This document shows, in pieces, positions 14,012 to 45,897 of a stretch of DNA of 64,000 nt. The notes under the pieces were generated by a model. That model was not told the DNA's origin, searched no databases, and saw nothing but the letters and a program-made list of their open reading frames with translations. Location: positions 1 through 64,000 of the forward strand of contig NZ_JACJKN010000010.1 of assembly GCF_016900775.1 (NCBI RefSeq), in the 5' to 3' direction. Position numbers and translations under genes: made by a program. The stretch is from Olsenella uli. Its GTDB lineage: Bacteria > Actinomycetota > Coriobacteriia > Coriobacteriales > Atopobiaceae. Positions within the stretch are counted from its first letter, which is position 1, and every line of letters starts with the position of its first letter.

Positions 14012-14027
14012 TTCTGCTCCTTTCCGC

Positions 14028-14087
14028 AAATTGGGGACAGTCCCCAATTTACATAAAACATTTCTGCTAATTGGGGACTGTCCCCAA
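14028..14087. repeat. Pair of GGGGAC palindromes (REP-like)
   Basis: Copy 1 (14028-14050) is a perfect palindrome around a central A: AAATTGGGGAC then A then the complement. Copy 2 (14071-14087) is TTGGGGAC, T, GTCCCCAA, the same sequence in the opposite orientation. A short direct repeat CATTTCTGCT accompanies both copies (14008, 14059). The element sits in the upp leader and resembles REP sequences moved by IS200-type RAYT transposases; no such gene is in the window. Confidence 0.7.
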
Positions 14088-14095
14088 CTTGCAGA

Positions 14096-18465: not shown

Positions 18466-18697
18466 GCGCAAACGAGGCCTTGGTGCGAAAGACGGCAGGC
18501 TCGGCGCGCAATCGGTGGCTTGGTGCGAAGCATTTTTGCTCGCAGAAGTGCCCTACAGGCAGTATACGGCCGAGCGCATATGGCAAAACGCCTGATGGTC
18601 GCCATCCGCCCGTTCGGCCGCGCCGGAAAACGCTTCGCACCAAGCCGCCGATTGCGCAGGAGCGCCGCCGAGCTTCGCACCAACGAGCTGACTGCGC
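18466..18697. repeat. Symmetrical 2+2 array of a 26-nt unit (40-nt period)
   Basis: Two forward units (18466-18491, 18506-18531) are followed by two inverted units (18632-18657, 18672-18697). Each carries GCGCA at one end and TTGGTGCGAAG at the other. The inner pair differs by one base, which would be a G-U pair in RNA. Starts are exactly 40 nt apart on both sides, with a 100-nt centre. This fills the 330-bp gap between glxK and prfA; I see no gene in it. Confidence 0.75.
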
Positions 18698-18771
18698 ACA
18701 CGTCGAGAAAAAACGACCGCCCCGTCGCACGCACGCGACGGGGCGGCAGCACGGCCAATGCCGGGGCGGCG

Positions 18772-22031: not shown

Positions 22032-22051
22032 GGCAGGACTCCTCTTCTTCG

Positions 22052-22100
22052 GCCCTGGTTTCCGACCAGGGCGGGGGTTCGTCTTGGTTCCGACCAAGAC
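22052..22100 (-). ncRNA. Twin-hairpin leader of rpmE (candidate L31 autoregulatory leader)
   Basis: In the rpmE 5' untranslated region two hairpins share a loop. The upstream one (22081-22100) is GTCTTGG-TCGGAA-CCAAGAC; the downstream one (22052-22072) is GCCCTGG-TCGGAAA-CCAGGGC. Stems differ but the GGTCGGAA(A)CC core is identical. A minus-strand TATAGT at 22115-22120 may be the -10 box. Lineage-specific L31 leaders are known; from memory one is described for Coriobacteria, but I cannot check the match. Confidence 0.7.
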
Positions 22101-28786: not shown

Positions 28787-28882
28787 GTGCCAGGGGGACG
28801 GAGGAGCCGCCACCGCTCCGTCCCCGCTTCCCAGAACGTGCCGGGGGACGGAGCGGTGGCGGCTCCTCCGTCCCCTTGGCAC
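28787..28882. repeat. Long near-perfect inverted repeat (about 38-nt arms)
   Basis: The left arm (28787-28824) begins GTGCCAGGGGGACGGAGGAG and the right arm (28845-28882) is its complement with one or two mismatches at the outer end. The loop is about 20 bases. It fills the space between the aminotransferase and PHP genes, both minus-strand, so its RNA form would be a very stable stem. The GGGGACGG core resembles the GGGGAC palindromes at 14.0 and 37.8 kb. Confidence 0.8.
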
Positions 28883-41463: not shown

Positions 41464-41727
41464 GTTAGTGGAGCGCGGTCGTTGCGATACTACGGCCCCT
41501 ACCTGCTTAGAGAACGGCGGTCGTTGCGGGCCTGATCTAAAGAACTGTTAGAAATCCGGGGCCATTGCGCCCGGACGGCCCCGCAGGCGAGAAGAACGTG
41601 GCGCCGGCAGCCCGCGGGCGATGCAACGAACCCCATTCTCTAACGCACGCGCCCCGTCGTCCCGCAACGACCGCCATTCTCTAGGCGGGCGCGCGGGATG
41701 ACCGTGCAACGGCCCCGATTCCCTAAG
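41464..41727. repeat. Symmetrical 3+3 array of a 23-nt unit (41-42-nt period), array 1
   Basis: Forward units start at 41464, 41506 and 41547; inverted units occupy 41622-41644, 41663-41685 and 41705-41727. Each is 23 nt: STTAG, about five variable bases, then a GC-rich core (mostly GGGG or GCGG) ending YRTTGCR. Spacers are 19, 18, centre 52, 18 and 19 nt, and are not alike. The centre holds the 12-mer GGCGAGAAGAAC (41586). In the following 130 bp GC-rich repeats include GGGCGGAAGCGG twice. No gene is seen from 41369 to 41927. Confidence 0.85.
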
Positions 41728-45592: not shown

Positions 45593-45897
45593 GTTAGGAT
45601 TTCGGGGTCATTGTGGCGCTGGCAGCACGTGGGGGTTAGTATCCTGGGGTCGTTGCAGGTGGCGGCGCAAGGCGCGTTAGGGATTCGGGGCTGTTGCGGG
45701 CGCGGGGCGCCCGGCGGCGGCCCGTCGGGGCCCGCTGCGCGCGGACGGGCGCGGAGAGCGCGGCCCGCAGGTTCTTCTCGCCACCGTGGGCGCGCAATGG
45801 CACGGATTTCTTAACCCCATATGCGCAAGGCGCCGCAACAAGCCCAAATCGCTAACGCGCGGACGCCGCGGGCGCGCAATGACCCCAAAAGCCTAAG
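45593..45897. repeat. Symmetrical 3+3 array of the same 23-nt unit, array 2
   Basis: Forward units start at 45593, 45635 and 45676; inverted units are 45793-45815, 45834-45856 and 45875-45897. Starts are 42, 41, then 41 and 41 nt apart, as in array 1. Units read GTTAG or CTTAG (one inverted copy has GTTAA), then mostly GGGG, then TTGYR. The 94-nt centre contains the 12-mer as GTTCTTCTCGCC (45771). The array fills the space between tRNA-Glu and the tRNA-Leu terminator. Confidence 0.85.

Follow-up and report, generated by a model that had tools for sequence, protein, structure and literature searches.

What is a symmetrical array of four short sites, two direct and two inverted, doing between genes of the Olsenella uli chromosome, and which protein, if any, acts on it? 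The array lies in the window analysed here, a stretch of 64,000 nucleotides (NCBI RefSeq assembly GCF_016900775.1, contig NZ_JACJKN010000010.1, positions 1 to 64,000 of the forward strand).

Layout of the array

The array at 18466-18697 comprises two direct and two inverted 25-nt sites, with both spacings equal to 40 nt (Table 1), and perfect matches to TTGGTGCGAA are found in the 64-kb window only at these four sites. The sequence-only reading had described 26-nt units in a 2+2 plan with a 40-nt period on both sides, which was borne out when the coordinates were re-read; its 100-nt centre (the gap between the inner units, taken as 26 nt) and its single-base difference between the inner 26-nt units also held. 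A de novo detector of 2+2 arrays scored the element at 117, against 88 for the best of 30 block-shuffled 3-kb pieces, and gave no score of at least 95 on 400 kb of shuffled sister-genome DNA. The hairpin outside the array is inferred to be the prfA terminator.

Elsewhere in the window, an L31-Coriobacteria ribosomal protein leader matched at gathering score (22039-22072), and strong hairpins surround GGGGAC/GTCCCC at 14023-14095 and 28787-28882. Perhaps RAYT-type REPs, they are similar in style to one hairpin in L069 near a Y1_Tnp gene.

Table 1. Coordinates of the array, its parts and neighbouring features, and locations of family-B arrays (positions in the window unless a contig stretch is named)
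Feature	Position	Strand	Remark
Outer left site (unit 1), 25 nt	18466..18490	+	
Inner left site (unit 2), 25 nt	18506..18530	+	40 nt from unit 1
T-tract just inside unit 2	18533..18537	+
Asymmetric core, ATCAGGCGTTTTGC on minus strand	18583..18596	-	weak core-profile match, score 8.1
T-tract just inside unit 3	18627..18630	-	T's on minus strand
Inner right site (unit 3), inverted, 25 nt	18633..18657	-
Outer right site (unit 4), inverted, 25 nt	18673..18697	-	40 nt from unit 3
Perfect 12-bp hairpin, then T-rich DNA on minus strand	18717..18746	-	outside array
Family-B array, 3+3 units of 23 nt	41464..41727		plan as in the window array, other unit
Family-B array, 3+3 units	45593..45897		between tRNA-Glu and tRNA-Leu
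Family-B arrays outside the window	L254-L264, L268

Dispersed copies in the genome

With the element as query, the genome from which the window comes (2.48 Mb, 66 contigs) gave 56 matches, which resolve into 22 arrays including that of the window; a 23rd (L123) carries a sister-type unit. The unit is therefore not absent elsewhere, as the sequence-only reading's own refutation would have required, but recurs in 22 further arrays of this genome. All four units are present in 21 of the 22 (L016 is without the outer right unit), and 39 of 43 measurable spacings are 40 nt, the other four being 41 nt. The units have the consensus TGCGCAATCAGSCCCTTGGTGCGAAG, whose middle is poorly conserved, and a conserved TTT, at the offset of the T-tract inside unit 2 (Table 1), follows the inner units but not the outer ones.

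The arrays are intergenic, and the neighbours scanned are mixed housekeeping genes. Every gene orientation is seen around them, with 11 of 97 scorable arrays lying between convergent genes. Since orientations are mixed, a plain operator role does not fit, and an ordinary operator was rejected on this ground. GC skew in sampled pieces of the sister genome G035, considered for replication-strand bias, was too noisy for a call.

Helical phasing and a shared core

The inner gaps of the 22 own arrays measure 81, 91-92, 99, 101-103 and 113 nt. Their vector strength is 0.887 at 10.4-10.5 bp, which 0 of 20,000 random sets matched at any period from 8 to 14. Such phasing is what proteins on set faces of the DNA would require, and not what a folded strand requires.

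The gaps also enclose a common element. The 8-mer CAACTGGG is enriched, occurring in 18 of 113 array interiors and in at most 6 in 20 shuffled sets, and the asymmetric 14-bp core grown from it, A.CWGSS.WWWYG, is found in 100 of the 113; its distances from the inner units fall into clusters about 10 bp apart. The core profile was hand-seeded from the 8-mer result and applied with a cut-off of >6; 98 of the 100 scoring interiors are distinct. The counts are not independent, since many of the 113 arrays are orthologous, and the set includes one array of another family (L157:7819). The core is kept regardless of arm sequence, scoring >6 in 23 of 25 arrays beside the DUF559 gene described below.

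Could the folded strand itself be at work, as an RNA hairpin or a DNA cruciform? The single-strand folding energy of the window element lies below that of shuffles on both strands (z -7.50 and -7.05), a gain in stability expected from any palindrome. In the variable middle of the unit, similarity is somewhat higher for pairs 1-4 (0.719) and 2-3 (0.749) than for the remaining ones (0.657-0.673; 0 of 5000 permutations), as strand pairing would predict. We nonetheless regard a working fold as very improbable: gaps and core distances keep to a period of about 10.5 bp, neither spacers nor interior show constraint, many arrays have 1-4 or 2-3 pairs that do not match, and an Rfam search of the window element gave no family at gathering score. 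Sub-threshold matches to MIR1437 were put down to the long hairpin of the element. The G-U compatibility of the inner units, from which the sequence-only reading had hinted at RNA structure, is not favoured, as the gaps track the DNA helical repeat.

Arms flanking a core at set spacing are likewise the arrangement of lambda attP, the substrate of heterobivalent integrases, in which the arms are brought together by bending (PMC4880445). The arrays do place a core between arm sites with set phasing. We give least credence, however, to a lambda-type attachment site with a tyrosine recombinase on arms and core. No linked or covarying tyrosine recombinase was found for the arrays, which exist in about 20 chromosomal copies with a DUF559 gene instead; the three Phage_integrase matches in the own genome, two of them strong and Xer-like, include none near an array (by eye); and viral contigs held no array in three scans (1, 2 and 0 stretches returned). 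A tyrosine recombinase partner and a phage origin were dropped on these grounds.

Arrays in relatives and other array families

With an own-genome array as query, no match was obtained in 29 other genomes. A unit-free detector at the prfA loci, however, showed 11 of 29 relatives to have arrays that keep the plan but use different units (30 loci including our own, 12 of them with an array; G040 was not included), and a unit-free scan of 400 kb of the sister G035 found four arrays of the window array's family. A pattern scan of named genomes returned 78 stretches, 72 of them from Atopobiaceae, and the unit-free detector found arrays in 66 of the 78. Across pattern-found arrays, 133 of 136 spacings equal 40, with two of the three exceptions in one other-family array, so that the 40-nt period, which the sequence-only reading had offered as a check, is kept in relatives though the unit sequence differs. 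What persists of the unit is the skeleton TGCAAAA N6 YTCGTG, while the 3' tail is lineage-specific; the window species has CCTTGG in the right half where G035 and G012 have GGATAG, and C vs T near the left end. In other genera, samples of G142 and G100 (80 kb from each) and of G104 (5.7 kb) showed no array. A contig binned as a Coprenecus MAG (L184:21-67) begins with units that hardly differ from those of the Olsenella pullicola array L210, and is probably misbinned.

The 23-nt-unit arrays to which the sequence-only reading alluded are real (Table 1). This family B, with unit GTTAG..GTCGTTGCG (also given as GTTAGAGAATCGCGGTCGTTGCG), accounts for 14 own-genome arrays, which have one to three units on each side and a period of 41 nt (36 of 43 spacings; four are 42). 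Its gaps (31, 41, 52, 52, 62, 63, 73, 73, 83, 94, 94, 95, 104 and 115) have a vector strength of 0.972 at 10.5 bp, with none of 20,000 random sets as good. Its tandem pattern occurs, among 395 genomes of the order, only in the own genome and G035. Four of the 14 arrays adjoin transposase genes of different kinds, and one IS3-type element (L255:1209-3000) has a family-B array on one side and more B units on the other. An IS origin of family B was dropped; the transposase genes are read as insertions beside the arrays, as if family-B arrays draw insertions.

In relatives, the plan was also seen with yet other units (CGTCCGGGAATC.., TGACGAAATCGGGCTCGTCTCAGC, TTAGGGATCGCC..) at L359:1034, L157:7819, L376:19689, L387:385 and L389:1587, and a 3+2 array in G012 (L141:2008) has an extra direct unit at the 40-nt period. 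The proposal of a general architecture with several sequence families is thus supported by other-unit arrays of the same plan, both in the own genome and in relatives.

A DUF559 gene beside one array

One array locus, common to most species, lies between corC and a ~340-aa gene whose product has a DUF559 domain at its C-terminal end. Of 31 genus genomes, 26 have a strong ortholog, and every genome also has several weaker relatives. An array stands at the 3' side of the ortholog in 25 of the 26 genomes above threshold and in the 26th (G005) just below it, making 26/26. No array was found beside the four best weak relatives, and in 1.12 Mb from five genomes an array lay within 2.5 kb of 3/3 orthologs vs 0/7 paralogs. 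Of the five gene-less genomes, four yielded a corC locus (G036 did not). At these four, the gene-and-array region, which spans ~1.5 kb in the window species, gives way to 129-353 nt that contain neither an array nor a convincing gene match. Samples of the gene-less G001 (180 kb), G008 (200 kb), G036 (153 kb) and G011 (49 kb) held other-family arrays only, and none with the TGCAAAA N6 YTCGTG skeleton. G033 has two same-plan arrays with weak cores in 200 kb and no clear DUF559 ortholog, its best relative being a weak match with an internal stop.

Pfam DUF559 (cut-off 20.6 bits) matched the proteins of the own genome (25.2), G035 (22.1) and G012 (25.4), and did not match the two orthologs scanned from further away. 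Six aligned orthologs keep the D, E and H residues expected of the nuclease motif. The gene is under purifying selection (dN/dS 0.08-0.22, five pairs), and between the own genome and G012/G035 the protein is 68.7% identical, vs 68.9% for glycerate kinase; on this one comparison of sequences it does not appear uniquely fast-evolving. A structure model was too poor for a structural search (mean pLDDT 43.5), and no solved structural relative was found by sequence. The DUF559 domain has recently been placed in the PD-(D/E)XK superfamily with Vsr-like endonucleases (PMC12907096). Caulobacter VsrA, of the same domain family as the linked gene, is tied there to a cytosine methyltransferase (PMC12907096), whereas the gene here is tied to dispersed multi-site arrays. 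We found no account of such arrays or of a DUF559-repeat link in the literature, subscription papers being outside the scope of the search.

Constraint on sites and rewriting in place

G012 and G035, whose genes are about 93% identical, share eight orthologous arrays. Identity in these is 90.6% within sites (696/768), compared with 70.7% in spacers (181/256), 69.8% in interiors (559/801) and 71.4% in flanks (685/960). Inner gap and array length are equal in all eight once the register is corrected by one base in three of them. Most dispersed arrays are single-locus and old, and are shared by vertical descent. Within 400 kb of G035, all four of its arrays occupy loci that have an array in the window genome, and four own array loci, prfA included, are without one in the same stretch; empty array sites resemble losses at least once in the G012/G035 comparison.

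Such selection on sites and spacing at each locus, together with the helical phasing, the intergenic position and the vertical inheritance, would also suit an architectural or regulatory platform (looping, nucleoid organisation or a transcription roadblock) to which the DUF559 or another protein binds with the core left uncut. We hold this to be possible but doubtful, since neither the gene orientations nor the mixed housekeeping neighbours favour it, and the six aligned orthologs retain the D, E and H positions of the nuclease motif.

At 12 loci shared by the own genome and G012/G035, interiors are clearly homologous at five (above all 12 shuffles), marginally so at three and not at four, one of which pairs arrays of different unit number. 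All own sites at these loci belong to another family than the G012/G035 sites. Homologous interiors with sites of another family imply that the sites were rewritten where they stood. On such a reading, 20 of 22 arrays of the window species would be converted, with graded intermediates (GGATA, GGATG, CGATG, CCTTG); among 91 own-genome units, 68 have CCTTG, 2 CGATG, 4 GGATG and 4 GGATA. A 2-kb stretch that is 99% identical between the window species and G035 (L029:1-2048 vs L087:8321-10368) ends ~30 nt before the array, the rest being 88% identical; it is read as a recent transfer with its end at the array.

Alternatively, the arrays might be mobile, as a REPIN- or MITE-like family of non-autonomous elements that the DUF559 protein or an unknown enzyme copies. 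In IR/DR transposon ends (Tn7, Mu, IS21, Sleeping Beauty), direct binding sites are repeated within the inverted ends, and direct sites inside inverted ends are seen here too; unlike those ends, the arrays show no transposase or target duplication and have a conserved core inside. Dispersed intergenic copies with species-specific sequence and a single gene beside one copy also recall REPIN/RAYT, described in Pseudomonas fluorescens SBW25 and others. The likeness includes inverted repeats, a poorly conserved spacer and a nuclease-type gene adjoining copies (PMC3116915). A species-specific dispersed repeat with a single-copy cognate gene is indeed present. However, a REPIN consists of two inverted REPs pairing into a hairpin, served by a Y1 (HUH) protein whose gene lies beside the repeat, whereas 21 of 22 arrays have 2+2 sites, phased on double-stranded DNA around a core, and the linked gene is DUF559. 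A RAYT partner was dropped, as the five Y1_Tnp loci of this genome were without units of the window type (A) or of family B, save one chance two-mismatch match. We judge mobility distinctly unlikely for further reasons. No target-site duplications were found at the 22 own arrays (flanks compared by eye), and no shared interior among them, matches covering the arms and not the interiors, core excepted, so that both MITE/IS hallmarks are lacking. Nor was an autonomous copy seen. Interiors change as flanking DNA does whereas the sites are conserved, several species have arrays at orthologous loci, and empty sites are, at least once, apparent losses.

Covariation of gene and sites

Across 22 species, site distance correlates with DUF559 distance given prfA (partial Mantel r=0.35, 0/9999 permutations), compared with r=-0.10 for site vs prfA given DUF559. 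Four of the 26 gene-bearing genomes were left out, G040 for want of a prfA locus and G034, G002 and G005 because the unit register was unclear, and tails were hand-typed from gene-linked arrays. At the level of sequence, this demonstrates that DUF559 predicts the site independently of the species marker prfA. Gene and adjacent array are linked, so part of the covariation could be joint transfer.

Natural swaps point the same way. In the sisters G032 and G004, both flanks are 95-97% identical, while neither the array nor the gene's 3' part can be aligned, and the sites have switched tail; the swapped block of G032 matches G031, with tail GCAACA common to both. G017 and G006 repeat the pattern. 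As the G032/G004 swap took the 3' gene part with the array and the N-terminal part stayed, arm reading would be C-terminal.

Arrays not linked to the gene mostly follow it. Of 90 dispersed arrays in nine species, 86 have the same tail as the gene-side array. The counts for the own genome, G012 and part of G035 are biased upward, since the search there used similarity to the unit of the species itself; for the other species the pattern puts no condition on the tail, and the scan of 400 kb of G035 used no unit. In Thermophilibacter gallinarum (taken as G032), none of eight dispersed arrays matches the tail at the DUF559 locus and all eight keep the old tail, and in G017 the prfA array differs from the gene-linked one. 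A recent swap would explain both mismatches, as would a second protein.

These T. gallinarum arrays, and those of G033 without a clear ortholog, would suit a reading in which an unidentified factor binds the arms and the DUF559 gene is a linked passenger of one array. We think this unlikely in view of the adjacency in 26/26 genomes, the joint absence in 4/4, the covariation beyond the species marker and the tail shared by unlinked arrays.

Proposed mechanism

Layout, phasing, core, site constraint, gene-array association and protein-site covariation are established here by comparison of sequences; arm binding by the protein, its action at the core, any catalysis and the reason for which the cell retains the system are inferences. 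With that proviso, we favour, at moderate confidence, the reading that arrays and DUF559 gene form one dispersed chromosomal system in which the putative protein binds the arms and acts at the core. The window element would be one binding array, its four 25-bp sites on set helix faces around the asymmetric core, and its most likely partner the DUF559 protein (Vsr-like, PD-(D/E)XK nuclease fold), encoded once, beside corC. On binding the four arms, this protein may close the intervening DNA into one nucleoprotein complex, which could bridge, nick or cleave (or insulate) at the core. It would be heterobivalent, a fast-evolving part reading the arms and another part the constant core. Arm specificity would evolve fast, moving as a gene-plus-array cassette, with dispersed arrays later rewritten in place to match the new cassette. 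Weighing against this reading are the G033 arrays without a clear ortholog, the mismatched tails of T. gallinarum and G017, the linkage of gene and neighbouring array, the unremarkable rate of the protein, the two distant orthologs without a Pfam match, the poor structure model and the slight excess of likeness in unit pairs 1-4 and 2-3.

More tentatively, and at somewhat less than even confidence, we suggest that a nuclease-fold DUF559 protein with ~20 phased arrays sharing one core represents a new class of chromosomal DNA-transaction system, in which cassette replacement is followed by site-by-site rewriting, T. gallinarum standing early in this process and the window species late.

Thus, the arrays and their co-varying gene point to a putative chromosomal DNA-protein system that has not been described. 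If this is true, gut Olsenella/Thermophilibacter carry an undescribed nucleoprotein system with a readable code of partner gene, four arms and core. They would also offer a natural series, from species yet to switch through those in transition to those that have switched, on how a DNA-binding specificity changes jointly with its dozens of sites; the swaps between G032 and G004 and between G017 and G006 suggest which part of the protein sets arm specificity.
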